Shown one piece after another: positions 45,544 through 52,950 of a DNA stretch of 64,000 nt. Both the position numbers and the translations under genes were made by a program. The stretch lies in the NCBI RefSeq assembly GCF_001457775.1, contig NZ_CYSG01000013.1, positions 1-64,000 of the forward strand, written 5' to 3'. Each line of letters opens with the position of its first letter. Position 1 is the stretch's first letter. A model generated the notes under the pieces. That model was not told where the DNA came from. It saw only the letters and a list, made by a program, of their open reading frames with translations, and did no database searches. The stretch is from Phaeobacter sp. CECT 5382 (lineage in GTDB: Bacteria > Pseudomonadota > Alphaproteobacteria > Rhodobacterales > Rhodobacteraceae).

Positions 45544-45960
45544 CTAATTCACCTCGATCATGCTGCGCAATTGATCCCGGCGCTGGCGGGTAAGTTCGGC
45601 CTTGCAGATCGTCACCATAAGGGGCTCGAAACTGCCACCGCGAAACTGAAACCCTTCGGCGATGCAGGCGGCATCGCGAAAGGGAATCCAAGCGCGCTGT
45701 GCCTGCAACAAGGCATCTTCTGCGCCTCTCAGGGTATCCGGCAGATCCCTGTCCAGATCATGCATGGACTGGCGGGCCGCCTTATAGGCGCGGTTCAATT
45801 CTGCGTCAGCAAGGTCAAAATCCTGCCCGGCGCAAATGCGCATTTCTCGGGTGGTCTGGGCGTCATCGCAGGCGGCCAGTGCAGCAGTTGCGAGAAGGCC
45901 GCTCAGTGGCAAGGCCAGACAAACCTGGATCAGGCCAGAGGTTGAAAATCGGTGGGGCAT
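45544..45960 (-). CDS. LprI-like (DUF1311) exported protein
   Basis: This 138-residue protein has a signal peptide (LPLSGLLATAALA, cleavage before ACDD) and a DUF1311/LprI-type domain (TTREMRICAGQDFDLADAELNRAYKAA, then LLQAQRAWIPFRDAACIAE). Four Cys probably form disulfides. Some members inhibit lysozyme. I chose the ATG at 45960, with AGGAA before it, and not the long frame to 46197, which has no leader. Confidence 0.75.
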   Translation of the reverse strand: MPHRFSTSGLIQVCLALPLSGLLATAALAACDDAQTTREMRICAGQDFDLADAELNRAYKAARQSMHDLDRDLPDTLRGAEDALLQAQRAWIPFRDAACIAEGFQFRGGSFEPLMVTICKAELTRQRRDQLRSMIEVN

Positions 45961-46175
45961 CAAAAGTTCCTGTCTGAAATACATAGGATGACATGCCCTG
46001 AAACAGCATGCTTTGGCACTGAACAGGACAGATTTCGCCTGCGTCAAGCCATGATTACTGTGGTTCTTACTGTGGTTTGCCGTGAGCGGCTGGCAGGCAA
46101 GGAATGTGCCAGGGGTGATGAGACATGCAGGATTTTCCCGCTTGCACTCTCGTTCTGGCTGTTGAACTTGGGGGC

Positions 46176-46787
46176 ATGAAGGAATTGCATTGCCCAAACT
46201 GCGGCGCGTTGGTCAGCCCGGCGGTGGCCAGCGTCAAGATGATCACCTGTACATCCTGCAGCACGACATTGCTGTTGCAGGACGGGGGTCTGCGTCTGGC
46301 CGGGCGGCAGGGAGTTCTGCATGATGGGCCAATGCTGTTTGGGCTGGGTGACACCGCCACGATTGCCGGGATCGACTATCACATCTTAGGCCAGGCACGG
46401 TTCTCGTATGAGCGTGGTAGCTGGGATGAGTTCTGGGCTACGGATACCGTCGGAGCTGCTTTCTGGATCTCGGTGGACGAAGGCGACCTGATCCTGCAGC
46501 GCAGCCTGTCGCGGCAGGATTGGCCGAAATATGATGGCTACCTCTCCCTTGGCAGCACTTTGCGCCACCGGGATGAAGAGTTCACCGTGGCCGAGCAGGG
46601 AGACGGAACCTGTACCGGCCTGCGCGGCAGCTTTGGTCATGCGTTGAGCGTCGGGGAAAGCTATCGTTTTCTGAACCTGCAGGGCGAAGATGGCAGTGTT
46701 CTGTCGGCTGAAATCGAAGCCAGGCAATATGAATGGTTTCTGGGCCAATGGATCGACCCGTTTGATGTCACGGTGAGACGATCATGA
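46176..46787 (+). CDS. DUF4178 protein with zinc ribbon
   Basis: This 203-residue protein begins MKELHCPNCGALVSPAVA, with a second Cys pair CTSCSTTLL (a C2-C2 zinc ribbon), and then a DUF4178 domain (GIDYHILGQARFSYERGSWDEFWATD). The start at 46176 is the family-like one; 46125 is also possible. It overlaps the next gene by 4 bases. It is the first gene of a five-gene membrane system with a second DUF4178, a small membrane protein, DUF350 and an aminopropyltransferase. Confidence 0.75.
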   Translation: MKELHCPNCGALVSPAVASVKMITCTSCSTTLLLQDGGLRLAGRQGVLHDGPMLFGLGDTATIAGIDYHILGQARFSYERGSWDEFWATDTVGAAFWISVDEGDLILQRSLSRQDWPKYDGYLSLGSTLRHRDEEFTVAEQGDGTCTGLRGSFGHALSVGESYRFLNLQGEDGSVLSAEIEARQYEWFLGQWIDPFDVTVRRS

Positions 46788-48097
46788 GCCTAAATCCTGA
46801 GTTGAAGAGCATCAATTGCACGGCCTGTGGTGCCGGGCTTGATGTGCTGGGCGGTGGCCGGGTCACCACTCATGTCTGTGCCTATTGCGGCAGCGCATTG
46901 GATACGCTGGACAACTATCAGGTGCTACAAAAGTTCGATCTGCTAAACCGTCCGGAAAGCCCTTTCAAGATTGGCATGACCGGCACGCTGTTCGGGGTCG
47001 ACTATACCGTAATCGGCATGTTGGAGCATGAAGAAGTCTGGGGCCCGCGTCGCTGGACCTGGGTTGATCATCAGTTGTTTTCCCCCACCCATGGCTATGC
47101 CTGGCTGACGCTTGAGGATAGCCATCTCACCTTTTCGCGGCGCTATCGAAAACCGGTGGGCTGGATGTCCGTGACCTGGGTCGAGACGGCGGAAACTCGG
47201 CCAAAGCTGCATGCGGGCGGGGTGGTCTACAAATACTATGAGACCTCCAGCAGTTCGGTAATCTTTGCCGAAGGGGAATTCACCTGGTCGCCAAAGACAG
47301 GCGAGAAGACCACCGCAGTCTCTGCCATGTCCGAGGATGCGGTCCTGTCGTTTTCACAGACCGGACAAGAGCGCGAAATCTACCGCACGGTCTATCTGGA
47401 TTGGTGGGCGACGGAACAGGCCTTTGGGCTTGCAGCAGCGCGCGCGCCGCGCGGTGTCCATGCGCTGCAACCGGCCAAGTTCGGCCCCAACGCTCAGTTT
47501 CTAACCAAATCCGGCCTGCTGATGATGGCGCTTTGCTTGGTCCTGGGGATCTTGCTGTCAGCCTTTCAGGGCAGTTCAGCCTTTGGCACGCAGCGCTTTG
47601 ACATTGCAGATCTGCCAGTGACTGTGCCCTTTAAGGTGGTGCAGCCAAGGCGCTTGACGCGGGTGCACCTGAAGGGATCTGCCCACAACAGTTGGGGCTA
47701 TTTCGCAGTCGAGCTGGAAGACCCCGAAGGTGAGCTGCTCTTCGAAACCGGCCGTACGGTTGAGTATTATCAGGGCCGGGACAAGGATGGCAGCTGGAGC
47801 GAGGGCAGCAACCACGCGATGCTTGGCTTCTTTCCACCTGTCGCGGGCACCTACTCCCTGTCGCTGGCCCTGGAAGAGGGCGGGCTATGGGGGCCGAATT
47901 CAAGCGATGTGCATCCAACTGATCGTCCCATGCAACAGCTGGAGGTTTCCATTCGCAATGGGGTGTCCAGTGGGTATTGGCTGTATCTGCTGGGGCTTGG
48001 ATTTGGTGTGATTGGCGGTCTGCCACTCATGCGTCGGTTTTTGCACTACAAAGCACGTTGGCGGGGCAGTGACTGGGTAGAAGAGGGGGACGATTGA
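46784..48097 (+). CDS. larger DUF4178 membrane protein
   Basis: This 437-residue protein has an N-terminal zinc ribbon (CTACGAGL and CAYCGSAL), a DUF4178 domain (about 60-215), a membrane helix near 244-262, a beta-rich exported part and a last membrane helix near 400-418. It is thus anchored twice. The zinc ribbon side is presumably cytoplasmic. It is read in one run with the genes before and after it. Confidence 0.75.
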   Translation: MSLNPELKSINCTACGAGLDVLGGGRVTTHVCAYCGSALDTLDNYQVLQKFDLLNRPESPFKIGMTGTLFGVDYTVIGMLEHEEVWGPRRWTWVDHQLFSPTHGYAWLTLEDSHLTFSRRYRKPVGWMSVTWVETAETRPKLHAGGVVYKYYETSSSSVIFAEGEFTWSPKTGEKTTAVSAMSEDAVLSFSQTGQEREIYRTVYLDWWATEQAFGLAAARAPRGVHALQPAKFGPNAQFLTKSGLLMMALCLVLGILLSAFQGSSAFGTQRFDIADLPVTVPFKVVQPRRLTRVHLKGSAHNSWGYFAVELEDPEGELLFETGRTVEYYQGRDKDGSWSEGSNHAMLGFFPPVAGTYSLSLALEEGGLWGPNSSDVHPTDRPMQQLEVSIRNGVSSGYWLYLLGLGFGVIGGLPLMRRFLHYKARWRGSDWVEEGDD

Positions 48098-48098
48098 G

Positions 48099-48257
48099 AT
48101 GACTGTTTTTCGCCTGGTCTTTTTGCTGCTGTCAGCCTCGGCTGTCGGTGGAACCAGCTATGTGGCCTACCTGGGGCATGGCGGCGAAAGCCGTGATCTG
48201 GATCGCTCTATCCGGGCTGTCAGCGCTGGGCGGGGATTGAATGGAAGTATCAAATAG
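48099..48257 (+). CDS. small membrane protein of the DUF4178 system
   Basis: This 52-residue protein starts 1 base after the previous stop. The first 20 residues are hydrophobic (FRLVFLLLSASAVGGTSY), and the rest is polar and basic (LGHGGESRDLDRSIRAVSAG). It may be a signal-anchored or secreted small protein. Its place in the run (before DUF350) is what supports it being real. Confidence 0.6.
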   Translation: MTVFRLVFLLLSASAVGGTSYVAYLGHGGESRDLDRSIRAVSAGRGLNGSIK

Positions 48258-48268
48258 AGAGGGCTCTG

Positions 48269-48493
48269 ATGGAGTATCTTGCTGCAATTCAACTGGCTGA
48301 GCTGATCAGCACCGTGTTTTACACCTTTGTCGGTGTGGCCCTGATGGGGGCAGTCTGGAAGGTGGTCGACTGGCTGACGCCATTTCCGATCATGAAAGAG
48401 ATCGAGCAAGATCAGAACATGGCACTGGCGGTACTGATCGGGATGCTGTTCATTTCGATCGCCATTATCATCGCCGCCGTCATTGTCTCCTGA
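48269..48493 (+). CDS. DUF350 membrane protein
   Basis: This 74-residue protein has two membrane helices (about 14-35 and 50-73) with a short polar loop (PIMKEIEQDQNMALAVL), the usual half-length DUF350 layout. E. coli YjfL is a DUF350 member next to a glutathionylspermidine synthase-like protein. Here the partner is a membrane-bound aminopropyltransferase overlapping by 11 bases. A role in the membrane for polyamine-modified or related compounds is a guess. Confidence 0.75.
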   Translation: MEYLAAIQLAELISTVFYTFVGVALMGAVWKVVDWLTPFPIMKEIEQDQNMALAVLIGMLFISIAIIIAAVIVS

Positions 48494-50078
48494 TCCGGAC
48501 GTGACTGACAGCAAAGCAGACGCATCGACGCAGGCGCAGGTGAACAGGGCAGCCCTGCGTCTGCGCGAGACCTGGCTCTTGGTGGCGACCTTTTTGGTGG
48601 CTGTGGCAGGCCTCATCTATGAACTCATCGCGGCGACGCTGTCGAGCTACCTGCTGGGCGATTCCATCCGTCAGTTTTCCTATGTCATCGGTATATTCCT
48701 GTCGTCGATGGGGCTGGGCGCCTGGCTGTCGCGCTATGTGGCGCAGCCGGTGTCCGGCTTTGTCTGGGCGCAGATCCTGCTGGGCATCGCGGGGGGCTTC
48801 ATGGCGCCGCTGGTGTTTTTCACCTTTGCCTGGATGGAGAGCGTCACCCTGCCGCTATATGGGTTGCTGATCACCGTGGGGCTGTTGTCGGGCATGGAGA
48901 TCCCGCTGATTGCCCGGGTTCTGAAAGAGATCGGCGCGCCGGAGTTTCGTTTTGAGAATGTTCTCAGCGTGGACTACATCGGCGCACTGGCGGCCTCGTT
49001 GGCCTTTCCGCTGCTGATTATCCCGCACCTGGGACTGATGCCGGCCAGCCTCACTTTCGGGGCGCTTAACCTGGTGGTGGCGGGACTGTCGTTGTGGATC
49101 TTTCGAAGCCAGACCAGTGCCCTGCAGGTTGCTGTCTGGGCACTGGCGCTGACAGGCACATTGGCAGCCCTCTGGCAGGCAGAACGTCTGGTGTCGGCCA
49201 GCGAGGCGGCCTTGTTTGAGGATGATATCATCTTCAGTGAGGCAACGCCCTATCAGCAGATCACCGTGACCCGCTATCGCACCCGCACCCGGTTGTTTCT
49301 GGACTATTCCATCCAGTTCGACAGCCTGGACGAGCATCGCTATCACGAAAGCCTGGTGCACCCGGCGATGGCGCAGGCGCCGCGGCGCAAATCGGTGCTG
49401 ATCCTGGGCGGCGGTGATGGGATGGCAGCACGTGAGGTACTGCGCTGGGCTGCTGTCGAAGAGATCACGCTGGTGGATCTGGACCCCCGCGTGACGGAAT
49501 TGTTTCGCGACCATCCGGATCTGTCGGCCCTGAACCAGGACGCGCTGCGCGACCCAAGAGTAACAATTCACAACACAGATGCCTGGCGTTTCGTCGAGGA
49601 CAGCACCGCAGTCTTTGACGTGATCATCATTGATCTGCCGGACCCCAAAAACCTGTCCCTGTCCAAGCTGTATAGCCGCCAGTTTTACGGCACCCTGGTG
49701 GAGCGGCTCAGCGCGCAGGGGGTGATGGTTACCCAGGCAGGATCTCCGCTATTTGCCCGTGAGGCCTTCTGGTCGATCAAAACCACCCTCGCGGCAAGTC
49801 GTAATCCGAACCGTCCCGGACAGGGGTTATATACGCGCCCCTACCATGCCTATCTGCCGAGCTTTGGCGACTGGGGTTTTGTGATGGCCAGTGTAATGCC
49901 CCTTACAGACCGTCCAATTGGGCTTCCTGCGGGGCTGAAATATCTGTCACCCGAGGTCTGGCAGGCCGCGCAGGTCTTTGACCTTGAAACCGGACCGCTG
50001 GAGGTTTCAGCCAATACGCTGCAATCGCATGCGTTGGTGGGCTATTACCTGGATGGCTGGGCGCGCTGGTTCGAATGA
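48483..50078 (+). CDS. membrane-bound aminopropyltransferase (SpeE-like)
   Basis: This 531-residue protein has seven N-terminal membrane helices (about 30-230) and a spermidine-synthase-like Rossmann domain. The SAM-type loop GGGDG is at 309-313, and the acidic site IIIDLPDP follows. The start at 48483 is a TTG; a GTG at 48501 is an alternative. Such N-terminally membrane-anchored SpeE proteins are often next to DUF350 and DUF4178 genes. It may add aminopropyl groups to a membrane or exported substrate rather than make free spermidine. Confidence 0.8.
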   Translation: MSPDPDVTDSKADASTQAQVNRAALRLRETWLLVATFLVAVAGLIYELIAATLSSYLLGDSIRQFSYVIGIFLSSMGLGAWLSRYVAQPVSGFVWAQILLGIAGGFMAPLVFFTFAWMESVTLPLYGLLITVGLLSGMEIPLIARVLKEIGAPEFRFENVLSVDYIGALAASLAFPLLIIPHLGLMPASLTFGALNLVVAGLSLWIFRSQTSALQVAVWALALTGTLAALWQAERLVSASEAALFEDDIIFSEATPYQQITVTRYRTRTRLFLDYSIQFDSLDEHRYHESLVHPAMAQAPRRKSVLILGGGDGMAAREVLRWAAVEEITLVDLDPRVTELFRDHPDLSALNQDALRDPRVTIHNTDAWRFVEDSTAVFDVIIIDLPDPKNLSLSKLYSRQFYGTLVERLSAQGVMVTQAGSPLFAREAFWSIKTTLAASRNPNRPGQGLYTRPYHAYLPSFGDWGFVMASVMPLTDRPIGLPAGLKYLSPEVWQAAQVFDLETGPLEVSANTLQSHALVGYYLDGWARWFE

Positions 50079-50119
50079 AAACTACCTGTTCTGTCCAAAA
50101 AGCTGCCCCCGAATATGAG

Positions 50120-50160
50120 AAAGGCCCGGGCTGTTGCGCCGGGCCTTTTGTATTTTTTTT
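50120..50160. terminator. bidirectional terminator after the aminopropyltransferase gene
   Basis: AAAGGCCCGG (50120-50129) pairs with CCGGGCCTTT (50139-50148), followed by T-rich sequence. It lies between the plus-strand run and the minus-strand hmuV gene and could end both. Confidence 0.8.
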
Positions 50161-50168
50161 TGTGGATG

Positions 50169-50981
50169 TCAGGCTGAGCGCGCAGCCAGATCGATCCGAG
50201 CCTGCGGCAGCAGAAAGGGGATCTGGGCCGGTGGGGTGGTATTCACGGGTACCGGGCAGCCATAGGTGCGGGCCAGGGTTTCATCCGTCAGCACCTCAAA
50301 CGGGGTGCCGGTTGCCGCAATCAGCCCTGCCTCCATCAGCACCACATGATCGGCAAACATGGCGGTGAAGTTGAGATCATGCATCACTGCCACCACGCCA
50401 CCACCGCGTGTCGCATAATTGCGGGCCAGATCCATCACCGTGAACTGATGCCCGATATCAAGGCTCGCTACCGGTTCATCCAGGATCAGCCAGCGCGGAG
50501 TGCCGTCAACCACAGGCTCCCAGACCTGGGTGACAACGCGAGCCAACTGCACCCGCTGCTGTTCGCCGCCTGACAGATCCTGATACATACGCCCGGCAAA
50601 ACCAGCCAGCCCCACGGCTTCGAGCGCCTGTAGGGGCACTGTGCTATCCGCAGCTGACAACCCGGCGCTGAGGCCAAGGCGCACGATTTCGAGCACGGTA
50701 AAGGGAAAGGCGATGCTGCTGTTTTGCGGCTGCACCGCGCGGATCGCAGCCAGTTGCCAAGGCTTCATATCGGTCGTGTCTGCACCATTCAGGCGGACTT
50801 TTCCCCGATGGGCTATCTCCCCAGTCATGGCGCGCAACAATGTGGTCTTGCCAGACCCATTTGGGCCGACAATTGTAGTGACACGACCAGCCGTGGCGCT
50901 GAAATCCACATCCTTCAGGACTTGGCGGCGCCCCAGTTTGACGCTGATGCCCTTGGCTTGCAGGGTGAATTCTTGCGTCAT
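50169..50981 (-). CDS. hmuV: heme ABC transporter ATPase
   Basis: This 270-residue ATPase powers heme import through the inner membrane. Walker A is GPNGSGKT (39-46), signature LSGGEQQRVQLARVV, Walker B LILDEPVASLD. Its start overlaps the permease stop by 4 bases. It is the last gene of hmuS-hmuT-hmuU-hmuV. Confidence 0.93.
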   Translation of the reverse strand: MTQEFTLQAKGISVKLGRRQVLKDVDFSATAGRVTTIVGPNGSGKTTLLRAMTGEIAHRGKVRLNGADTTDMKPWQLAAIRAVQPQNSSIAFPFTVLEIVRLGLSAGLSAADSTVPLQALEAVGLAGFAGRMYQDLSGGEQQRVQLARVVTQVWEPVVDGTPRWLILDEPVASLDIGHQFTVMDLARNYATRGGGVVAVMHDLNFTAMFADHVVLMEAGLIAATGTPFEVLTDETLARTYGCPVPVNTTPPAQIPFLLPQARIDLAARSA

Positions 50982-52084
50982 ATCCCCAATCCTCCGCGGC
51001 GTTTCAGCAGGATCCAAAGGAACACAGGCGCGCCCAGGATGGCGGTAACGATGCCGATGGGCAGTTCTGCCGGGGCCACAATGATACGGGCGATCATATC
51101 AGCAGCGAGCAGCAATGTTGCCCCGAGCAGGGCCGCGTTGGGCAGAAGGCTGTGGTGATCAGGGCCAGTGGCCAGACGCAGCAGATGCGGCACCACGATG
51201 CCAATGAACCCAATGCCACCTGAAACCGCAACCGCAGCTCCGGTGGCCCCGGCAACGGCCAGAATGGCGATATTCTTGACGCGTTGCACGGCTATGCCGG
51301 TGTGACCGGCGGCGGCCTCTCCCAGCGCCAGCGCATTCAGGCCGCGCGCCAGAAATGGCGCGGTGGCCAGCGCCAGACCGATGATTGGCAGGGCCGTCAG
51401 AACCTTGACCCATGTGGCCCCGGCCAGGGATCCCATGCCCCAAAAGGTCAGATCGCGCAGCTGGGTGTCATCTGCGATATAGACAAGAATGCCAGAGGTG
51501 GCCCCGGACAAAGCCCCCAACGCGATCCCGGCCAGCAACATGGTGGCAACCGATGTCTGTCCACCACGGGTGGAGACCCGATAGAGGATCAGGGTCGAGG
51601 CCCAGCCGCCAAAAAACGCAGATAATGGCACAAGCGCAGAGCCTACGAGTTGCTGCACCGTCGCAGGCAGCAGGCTGCCCAACACGATGGCAGTGATCGC
51701 GGCGAGCCCGGCGCCGGCACTGACCCCGACAATGCCGGGATCAGCCAGGGGGTTGCGAAACAGCCCCTGCATCACCGCGCCAGAAACCGCCAGAGAGGCC
51801 CCGACGAGGATCCCCATGCACAGCCTAGGCAGGCGTATATCCAGCAGAACCACCCGCTCCATTGTGGACAGCTCCCGACCGGCCAGCAGATCCTGCAGCA
51901 CCGCCCACAAGGAGGTGCCAGAAGCACCAGTGGTGAGCGACAACAGCGAGACCAGTCCCAACAGCAAAACCAGAAGTAGTGTGAGCTGCCGCGCCCGAAT
52001 GCGGCGGTCCACTGCGGGGCTGATGAGCTCTGGCTTGGATGCTCCCGCCTCTGGATTGGCGATATCAGTGGTGGCGAGACTCAC
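50978..52084 (-). CDS. hmuU: heme ABC transporter permease
   Basis: This 368-residue FecCD-type permease has about nine membrane helices and the family segments RLPRLCMGILVGASLAVSGA and GLARLATGPDHHSLLPNAAL type (LLRLATGPDHHSLL). It overlaps hmuT and hmuV by 4 bases each. No signal for damage. Confidence 0.92.
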   Translation of the reverse strand: MSLATTDIANPEAGASKPELISPAVDRRIRARQLTLLLVLLLGLVSLLSLTTGASGTSLWAVLQDLLAGRELSTMERVVLLDIRLPRLCMGILVGASLAVSGAVMQGLFRNPLADPGIVGVSAGAGLAAITAIVLGSLLPATVQQLVGSALVPLSAFFGGWASTLILYRVSTRGGQTSVATMLLAGIALGALSGATSGILVYIADDTQLRDLTFWGMGSLAGATWVKVLTALPIIGLALATAPFLARGLNALALGEAAAGHTGIAVQRVKNIAILAVAGATGAAVAVSGGIGFIGIVVPHLLRLATGPDHHSLLPNAALLGATLLLAADMIARIIVAPAELPIGIVTAILGAPVFLWILLKRRGGLGI

Positions 52085-52950
52085 TGTGCTGCTCCGTAGA
52101 TGGCTGTGGAAAGCTCTGCTACAGCAGAGGCCGTGCGCGGCCCGAAGCCCAGAAGGTGCAAGCCGTTCATCCGGATCAGGTGCCCGGATTGTGCGGCGGG
52201 TGTCAGGGCAAGGGCTGGCAGCTCCAACATGGAAGTTTTGGTCAATCCGTGATCCCCGCCGCGATCCATCGCCAGGATCACATCTGGCGCGGCAGCGGCA
52301 ATGGCCTCGTCTGTCATTTGCTTGTAGCCACTAAACTGAGTGATGGCATTGATCCCGCCAGCCATCTGGATAATGCCATCTGCGGCGGTGTCCCGACCGC
52401 CGACCATGACGCGGCCACCCTGCGTTGAAAGCACAAACAGGATGCGTTTCGGGTGATCCCCTGCGGCCGCTGTTGCGCGCCTCTGCGCGTCAGCCAACTC
52501 GGTGGTGACACGCGCACTGAGCGCCTGCGCGGCTTCGTCCTTTCCCAGAGCTGTGCCGACGGTTTCGATCTTGGTCGCAACTCCGGCGGCTGAATAGATC
52601 TCTGGTACCTCGACATAGATGACATTGGCCTGTTTCAACACATCAAGCGTGGCTGGCGGGCCGGACCCTTCGGTGGCAATGATCATGTCGGGGTCCACCG
52701 ACAGTACCCCTTCGGGGGACAGGGCACGGGCATAGCCGACATTGGGCAGCTCCTCTGCCGCTGCTGGGAAAGAGGAGGTTGTATCGCGCGCCACCAGCCG
52801 GTTCTGTTGTCCTAGTGCGTAGACAATTTCGGTGACGGAGCCACCAATAGACACAATACGGGTGGCACTCTCGGCGCGCCCCATCTGGGCCGCAAAAAGC
52901 GTGAGAATGACTATGTTAAGCCCGGTGAACAGACGAGAAAACAGGCTCAT
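52081..52950 (-). CDS. hmuT: periplasmic heme-binding protein
   Basis: This 289-residue protein has a signal peptide (ending near MGRAES) and a cluster A-II binding fold. The Tyr in PNVGYARAL is the usual heme ligand of HmuT, and SIGGSVTEIVYALG is the family opening. It overlaps hmuS and hmuU by 4 bases. It delivers heme to HmuUV. Confidence 0.9.
   Translation of the reverse strand: MSLFSRLFTGLNIVILTLFAAQMGRAESATRIVSIGGSVTEIVYALGQQNRLVARDTTSSFPAAAEELPNVGYARALSPEGVLSVDPDMIIATEGSGPPATLDVLKQANVIYVEVPEIYSAAGVATKIETVGTALGKDEAAQALSARVTTELADAQRRATAAAGDHPKRILFVLSTQGGRVMVGGRDTAADGIIQMAGGINAITQFSGYKQMTDEAIAAAAPDVILAMDRGGDHGLTKTSMLELPALALTPAAQSGHLIRMNGLHLLGFGPRTASAVAELSTAIYGAAQ

Follow-up and report, generated by a model that had tools for sequence, protein, structure and literature searches.

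What does a spermidine-synthase fold act on when it is joined to seven membrane helices and encoded in an operon of membrane proteins? The question is raised by five head-to-tail open reading frames (ORFs) on the + strand at 46176-50078 of the window, by which we mean the whole 64,000-nucleotide stretch of Phaeobacter sp. CECT 5382 DNA under analysis (contig NZ_CYSG01000013.1, positions 1 to 64,000). In order, they encode a DUF4178 protein, a second DUF4178 protein, a 52-amino-acid membrane protein, a DUF350 protein and an aminopropyltransferase with seven transmembrane (TM) helices, here called 7TM-SpeE. The original prediction, made from the sequence, was that such a set might attach aminopropyl groups to a lipid or to a membrane peptide. 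The peptide part stands as our best reading, with the C-terminal lysine of the 52-amino-acid protein as the candidate acceptor, and the lipid part is weighed below as an alternative. We tentatively propose that the operon is a membrane-protein modification system, in which 7TM-SpeE would aminopropylate this lysine outside the cytoplasm and would not make free spermidine. We favour this proposal, but it may well fail, being limited mainly by the topology of the enzyme and by the unproven membrane passage of its donor, decarboxylated S-adenosylmethionine (dcSAM).

The small protein gives no match in Pfam. In an alignment of 14 small-protein sequences, residues Y21, S37, R39 and K52 are invariant. 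Compared with its relatives, the 52-amino-acid ORF changes most at the third codon position in six of six comparisons (from 14 of 23 differences to 28 of 60), and all seven sequences have AAA as their last sense codon. From this codon-position pattern and the constant last codon, the ORF looks like a genuine gene. The final lysine recurs far beyond these close relatives. An automatic rule, which demanded a Gly/Ser/basic tail ending in lysine on the strand of SpeE and near it, was applied to 146 loci, reduced to 137 by dropping SpeE sequences at least 90% identical, and was satisfied in 118 of the 137 non-redundant 7TM-SpeE loci, spread over many phyla. After inspection, 125 of the 137 encode near the enzyme a protein with a Gly/Ser/Arg-rich tail that ends in lysine. 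Inspection by eye added L089, L103, L127, L128, L132, L133, L170 and L191, removed L104 as a chance match and reassigned L101 and L189; the tail gene lies on the other strand in L128, L132 and L133 and farther off in L127, L170 and L191, and this widened search covered the loci alone and not the controls. Among the controls, lysine is the last residue of 50 of 1274 opposite-strand ORFs with similar tail composition and of 219 of 5503 opposite-strand ORFs overall. The same holds for only 5 of 137 SpeE proteins and 3 of 121 DUF350 proteins.

Since the 125 tails were selected for their final lysine, the fair figures are 118/137, 125/137 and those of a blind pick, in which the candidate was chosen by position and membrane helix with the last residue ignored. 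The blind pick ended in lysine in 80 of 82 cases; it covered those of the 137 loci with a candidate in the interval from DUF4178 to the next gene, and its rule was composed after the pattern was known. Its two misses, L087 and L164, are picks in another frame, and both loci do hold lysine-ending tails. The penultimate residue is one of four in 123 of the 125 tails (G 67, V 24, I 17, H 15). The lysine itself is encoded by AAA in 91 tails and by AAG in 34, and from this variation selection seems to act on the residue. Upstream in the tail, the motif [SN]xR(x)1-3S is present in 95 of 125 tails and in 263 of 975 controls, which is weaker evidence than the final lysine.

The tail is not confined to one kind of protein. 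Small membrane proteins carry 85 of the 125 tails, proteins of 148-225 amino acids carry 15, long proteins 13 plus 2, DUF4178 proteins 7 and others 3. Five of the 148-225-residue group were run on Pfam, of which four (L102, L174, L176 and L178) are DUF4247 proteins and one (L185) has no match. None of the four long proteins run, from the group of 15, gave a Pfam match above cut-off. Of the seven DUF4178 proteins that end in the tail, two were run (L129 and L092), and each has two DUF4178 stretches. A quick tree was made of 94 loci, of which 83 have the tail, and it requires 10 or more scaffold changes, a count that is approximate because the classes were assigned mainly by length and DUF4178 matches. 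These several unrelated scaffolds and repeated scaffold changes argue for a tail that can be moved between proteins as a module while remaining with 7TM-SpeE. In three loci from the same family as the window (L180, L184 and L185), the tail is on a protein of about 200 amino acids, the gene for S-adenosylmethionine decarboxylase (AdoMetDC) lies upstream in the same stretch, and there is no DUF4178 match. On an Alteromonas mediterranea megaplasmid (L191), genes for SpeE, speD, a hypothetical protein, a toxic-anion-resistance protein, DUF4178, a protein ending in ...RNRGPSSGK and DUF350 are found together in that order.

The enzyme of the operon has retained what an aminopropyltransferase needs. 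It matches the NCBIfam family NF002956, 'polyamine aminopropyltransferase', at full length (residues 15-529, 626.5 bits, cut-off 472), and Spermine_synth in Pfam (123.7 bits, cut-off 22.9). The AlphaFold2 model (pLDDT 91.3, pTM 0.70) places seven helices before the SpeE domain, in support of the predicted combination of seven helices with a spermidine-synthase fold. By VIA-align, the SpeE domain resembles the Thermus thermophilus aminopropyltransferase 1uir (Z 35.1, 2.2 Å over 274 residues) and the Medicago thermospermine synthase 6bq2 (Z 34.7, 1.9 Å over 261 residues). The GGGDG, DxxDP and Tyr-His-Glu active-site residues are invariant or nearly so in 50 homologues; Q258, Y287, H288, E289, D366, D384, D387 and Q418 are invariant, and position 312 is D in 46 and E in 4. 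With the exception of E289, we take these residues to be the equivalents of the dcSAM- and amine-site residues of known SpeE structures. Three further residues, R286 (50/50), W430 (48/50) and H455 (49/50), are specific to the 7TM family in comparison with 20 soluble SpeE proteins. They possibly contact the tail or the membrane domain, and R286 is a lead as the partner of the tail alpha-carboxylate.

The loops between the helices carry on average 9.28 Lys plus Arg on the side of the N-terminus, against 2.64 on the opposite side, with the same direction in all 50 homologues, and the Kyte-Doolittle mean of helix 7 reaches 1.6 in 47 of the 50. Given these positive-inside loops and a hydrophobic seventh helix, hence seven crossings, the N-terminus is predicted to be inside and the SpeE domain outside the cytoplasm. 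The tails are expected on the same side, since the small proteins have a short N-terminus followed by a helix and the longer ones have lipobox-like motifs (20 of 40 longer tail proteins). For a Corynebacterium DUF4247 protein, a table in PMC8854784 predicts export and an N-terminal anchor. Within the helices of 7TM-SpeE, three acids (E47, E139 and D164) are invariant among the 50 homologues.

The donor side is consistent with aminopropyl transfer. Of the 57 genome entries searched, all have AdoMetDC. Eleven of these entries come from the family sample and 46 from the 80 named loci, and two genomes or more are entered twice (G025/G165 and G112/G164). Across the family sample, AdoMetDC is present in 33 of 149 genomes, namely in 11 of 11 with 7TM-SpeE and in 22 of 138 without it (Fisher p 1.4e-8, relatedness uncorrected). 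The genome studied here encodes AdoMetDC on C9, next to a second, shorter SpeE-domain gene, and in some relatives the AdoMetDC gene adjoins the operon. A gene of cluster c5 is convergent with 7TM-SpeE, directly behind it on the opposite strand, in L045, L048, L049, L053, L055 and L079, and the L079 copy matches AdoMet_dc. The idea that the enzyme uses S-adenosylmethionine itself for want of dcSAM was rejected for this genome and its family because every searched genome entry with the enzyme has AdoMetDC; for Actinobacteria it may still hold. No other SpeE match above 24 bits is present in 9 of the 11 family-sample genomes with 7TM-SpeE, and G056 has one at 23.3 bits (cut-off 22.9). An NspC-type gene, representing an alternative route to spermidine, is found in 4 of the 11, three above cut-off and one in G112 at 400.7 bits against 409, and a Sacchrp_dh_C protein in 8 of the 11.

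A mechanism can be proposed that joins these elements. AdoMetDC, encoded elsewhere in this genome, would supply dcSAM, and the 7TM domain, with its three invariant acids inside helices, may pass this cationic compound outward. At the outer face of the inner membrane, 7TM-SpeE would then use dcSAM to aminopropylate the epsilon-amine of the lysine at the C-terminus, a residue with a putrescine-like side chain, so that the flexible Gly/Ser/Arg tail would end in N-epsilon-(3-aminopropyl)lysine. DUF350 and both DUF4178 proteins could be assembly or sensing partners, and the more cationic tail may stabilise or signal on the envelope, in a setting where relatives have PspA.

Several points weigh against this proposal. 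The modified peptide is so far only proposed and we infer its acceptor; dcSAM is made in the cytoplasm, and we infer, purely, that it passes the membrane. No lysine-tail gene was found in 12 of the 137 loci (L074, L086, L090, L093, L104, L107, L111, L130, L140, L141, L160 and L163), of which contig ends explain only some. Four of them (L086, L093, L104 and L107) form one branch in the Bacteroidota, and AdoMetDC is present in the genomes of the tail-less L093, L107 and L111. Corynebacterium glutamicum has a protein above the NF002956 cut-off, yet no AdoMet_dc match. For Rv2599 of Mycobacterium tuberculosis, the reverse primer given in PMC3726780 implies a 3' end encoding G-D-D-A, with no lysine tail, if it lies at the gene end. 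Both cases fit a joint loss of donor and tail in one lineage, but each is a single case. In three of the 11 family-sample genomes with the enzyme (G054, G072 and G063), there is neither a second SpeE nor a Sacchrp_dh_C match, and nothing above 26 bits for NspC, so that 7TM-SpeE could make free triamine there. The acceptor-site residues that are kept are, moreover, those of ordinary polyamine synthases. In the Flavobacteria-type loci L093 and L107, 7TM-SpeE has a cluster c5 (AdoMetDC-type) gene upstream and neither a DUF4178 nor a lysine-tail gene was found; a different use of the enzyme is possible there.

The last points bring up the alternative that survives best, namely that 7TM-SpeE makes a free, spermidine- or thermospermine-like polyamine at the membrane for envelope protection, with the tail lysine as a pseudosubstrate gating the acceptor pocket. 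Every compared catalytic and amine-site residue of polyamine synthases is retained, the nearest structures are the Thermus triamine/agmatine aminopropyltransferase and plant thermospermine synthase, and the 9 of 11 family-sample genomes noted above have no other convincing SpeE. A surface polyamine dependent on SpeD2/SpeE2 is also reported for Pseudomonas. We nevertheless consider this alternative unlikely, since the present genome already has the second SpeE-domain gene beside AdoMetDC, the predicted outside position would presumably leave free diamine acceptors scarce, and a pseudosubstrate would not require so strict a lysine.

It is improbable that the lysine is kept for a cause other than aminopropylation; examples would be a role in assembling a complex, escape from proteases, or a modification made by an enzyme encoded outside the operon. 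The C. glutamicum enzyme without AdoMetDC and Rv2599, which by the one primer lacks a lysine tail, indicate that enzyme, donor and tail are separable, but the tail accompanies this enzyme family over several scaffolds and differs in a sister system with another enzyme class. About as improbable is a lipid head group or small envelope amine as acceptor, in which case the lysine-tailed protein would serve in structure or targeting and bind anionic lipid through its basic tail. In favour of this, membrane association is predicted for four of the five proteins, and Gly, Ser and Arg abound in the tails. Yet it explains neither why the last residue is exactly lysine rather than some basic residue close to the C-terminus nor why tails of the ligase system end in -GG, and the Pfam matches of the five proteins include no lipid-enzyme family.

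Aminopropylation of the tail lysine, if it occurs, would be widespread. The genome studied here measures 4.1 Mb and its nearest relatives by 7TM-SpeE are roseobacters. A scan of 84,980 genomes yielded 99 loci, and the best 80 of these come from Pseudomonadota, Campylobacterota, Desulfomonile-type and Myxococcales metagenome-assembled genomes, Planctomycetota, Spirochaetota, Bacillota, Bacteroidota, Chloroflexi, a cyanobacterial metagenome-assembled genome and others. The thought that the unit is a lineage oddity was rejected in view of these relatives in many phyla. Above cut-off, 7TM-SpeE is present in 11 of 149 genomes of the window's family, one per genus, in 44 of 398 of its phylum sample, and in 10 of 299 of the phylum of G187 (L102, Halobacillus). 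The expected co-occurrence of DUF4178, DUF350 and SpeE across genomes was borne out by the neighbourhood survey, in which the gene order of the window, DUF4178-DUF4178-small-DUF350-SpeE, recurs in many loci of roseobacter type and also in several other phyla. A second order is DnaJ-like/PspA-DUF4178-long DUF350-DUF4178-small-SpeE, in some loci with an ion channel gene, and a third, in Bacillota, is DUF4178-PspA-DUF4247-DUF350-SpeE.

The coordinates of the unit are collected in the table below. The prediction of one tightly packed, membrane-linked set agrees with the layout: the DUF4178 genes overlap by 4 bases, gaps of 1 and 11 bases follow, and DUF350 and SpeE overlap by at most 11 bases depending on the SpeE start codon, which is ambiguous (TTG 48483 or GTG 48501). 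The first DUF4178 protein has by eye a zinc-ribbon-like CxxC...CxxC segment at its N-terminus, for which Pfam zinc-ribbon scores stay under cut-off. The AlphaFold2 model of the second consists of a zinc-ribbon-like N-terminus, the DUF4178 barrel, a TM helix (237-260), a GOLD-like beta-sandwich (262-393), predicted to lie outside, and another TM helix (398-425). The aligned part, mainly 262-393, resembles the GOLD domain of TMED1 by VIA-align (Z 9.6, 3.0 Å over 97 residues), a score that may reflect just a common arrangement. In a Foldseek search of the PDB with the entire protein, none of the 50 matches listed covers the whole fold (top TM-score over query 0.19). Behind 7TM-SpeE, the region 50112-50165 has a fold energy of -24.1 kcal/mol (z -4.54), and the hairpin in it is absent from the output of a consensus scan.

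Table. Features of the DUF4178-DUF350-SpeE operon, in window coordinates
Feature	Position	Strand	Basis
DUF4178 protein 1, 203 aa	46176..46787	+	Pfam PF13785, 63.7 bits (cut-off 25)
DUF4178 protein 2, 437 aa	46784..48097	+	Pfam DUF4178, 52.9 bits (cut-off 25); AlphaFold2 pLDDT 91.7
52-aa single-TM protein, ending ...SIRAVSAGRGLNGSIK, proposed acceptor	48099..48257	+	alignment, codon-position pattern, last-residue counts
Ser/Gly/Arg-rich C-terminal tail of the 52-aa protein, codons 37-52, last codon AAA (Lys)	48207..48254	+	
DUF350 membrane protein, short form, 74 aa	48269..48493	+	Pfam PF03994, 49.3 bits (cut-off 26); alignment
7TM-SpeE: seven TM helices, then aminopropyltransferase domain (residues ~245-531)	48483..50078	+	NF002956, AlphaFold2, VIA-align
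Terminator-like hairpin and T run, end of unit	50119..50161	+	by eye

The operon is flanked by genes outside the unit, namely glucose-6-phosphate isomerase and LprI-like genes (Pfam) and ABC transporter genes. The LprI-type protein (Pfam PF07007, 86.9 bits) is encoded at 45544-46197 on the - strand, divergent from the operon; its start is probably internal to the longest ORF, and the gene is not in the recurring unit. The ABC transporter genes, at 50169-52950 on the - strand, comprise an ATP-binding protein (Pfam) and permease- and binding-protein-like ORFs, and also adjoin the operon in close relatives (clusters c4, c12 and c21). They resemble a haemin/iron uptake system.

If the proposed acceptor is right, a large family of membrane 'spermidine synthases', named in databases for free-polyamine synthesis, would receive a different job, and its substrate would be known to one residue. 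It would also explain the retention of AdoMetDC where no other convincing SpeE is encoded, as in 9 of the 11 family-sample genomes with 7TM-SpeE.

How does this operon compare with known systems? Soluble spermidine and thermospermine synthases (1uir, 6bq2) share the catalytic fold and key residues with 7TM-SpeE, which differs from the 20 soluble proteins compared in its 7TM domain, in R286, W430 and H455, and in a shorter loop after P459-S-F. The function had been predicted to be undescribed, which is too strong: the main text of PMC11237479 describes a neighbourhood of 7TM-SpeE, DUF350, DUF4178 and a lipoprotein, with PspA-linked forms, and also floats 'aminopropylation of other substrates'. 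These PSP-associated operons share with ours 7TM-SpeE, DUF350 and DUF4178 together. In the described text they require PspA plus a CesT/Tir-type protein, whereas the five genes here include neither, one PspA gene lying elsewhere in the genome (C28). The present operon further differs in having two DUF4178 proteins, a short DUF350 and the 52-amino-acid protein in place of the lipoprotein. In that main text, the supplements being outside this check, the word 'lysine' occurs 0 times and the tail is unmentioned, and searches of open-licence papers for the system or the tail showed no mention of the lysine tail. As far as the literature was searched, three points are new: the tails that end in lysine, the way they contrast with -GG tails, and the outside location predicted for the enzyme. 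The gene neighbourhood is a variant of a described kind. A precedent for the proposed modification is provided by diatom silaffin, which carries propylamine units on protein lysines and for which AdoMetDC and an aminopropyltransferase are proposed to make the long-chain polyamines (PMC3820600); that system differs in being eukaryotic, with internal lysines, long chains and silica deposition.

The closest parallel is in Escherichia coli, where the yjfIJKLMC operon includes the DUF350 gene yjfL, the DUF1190 protein gene yjfM and yjfC, and ygiB-ygiC form a second pair. YgiC and YjfC bear the RefSeq product name peptide--spermidine ligase, and the C-termini of YgiB and YjfM are -GG. The best 30 places from the 39 genomes with a DUF1190 match, among 299 genomes, gave tails ending in -GG in 27 of 30 and in lysine in 0 of 30, the loci being mutually homologous and so not independent, and a YgiC/YjfC relative lies within a short stretch around 26 of the 30. 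Both kinds of system thus have DUF350 (in the yjf operon), a Gly/Ser/Arg-rich C-terminal tail, there on the DUF1190 protein, and adjacent polyamine chemistry. They differ in that E. coli combines an ATP-grasp ligase with a -GG tail, whereas the operon studied here combines SpeE with a tail that ends in -SIK and lacks the -GG ending of the YgiBC/YjfLMC substrates. As predicted, Pfam finds no ATP-grasp family among the five proteins, although no genome-wide ATP-grasp search was made, and a profile search of this genome gave no DUF1190 match. A ligase joins an amine to a carboxylate, and an aminopropyltransferase needs an amine; the contrast between the -GG and -K tails may follow from these needs, with the C-terminal carboxylate of YgiB and YjfM as the probable modification site in E. 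coli. The DUF350-ligase and DUF350-aminopropyltransferase envelope systems would then be joined by one logic, a disordered exported tail with a last residue that fits the enzyme. The wider claim, that bacteria widely share an unrecognised modification in which an outside enzyme receives dcSAM via its 7TM domain and aminopropylates the last lysine of tail proteins that are tethered to the membrane and dedicated to this role, seems to us possible but doubtful. It would parallel the proposed action of ATP-grasp ligases on -GG tails, with tail ending and enzyme class exchanged together.

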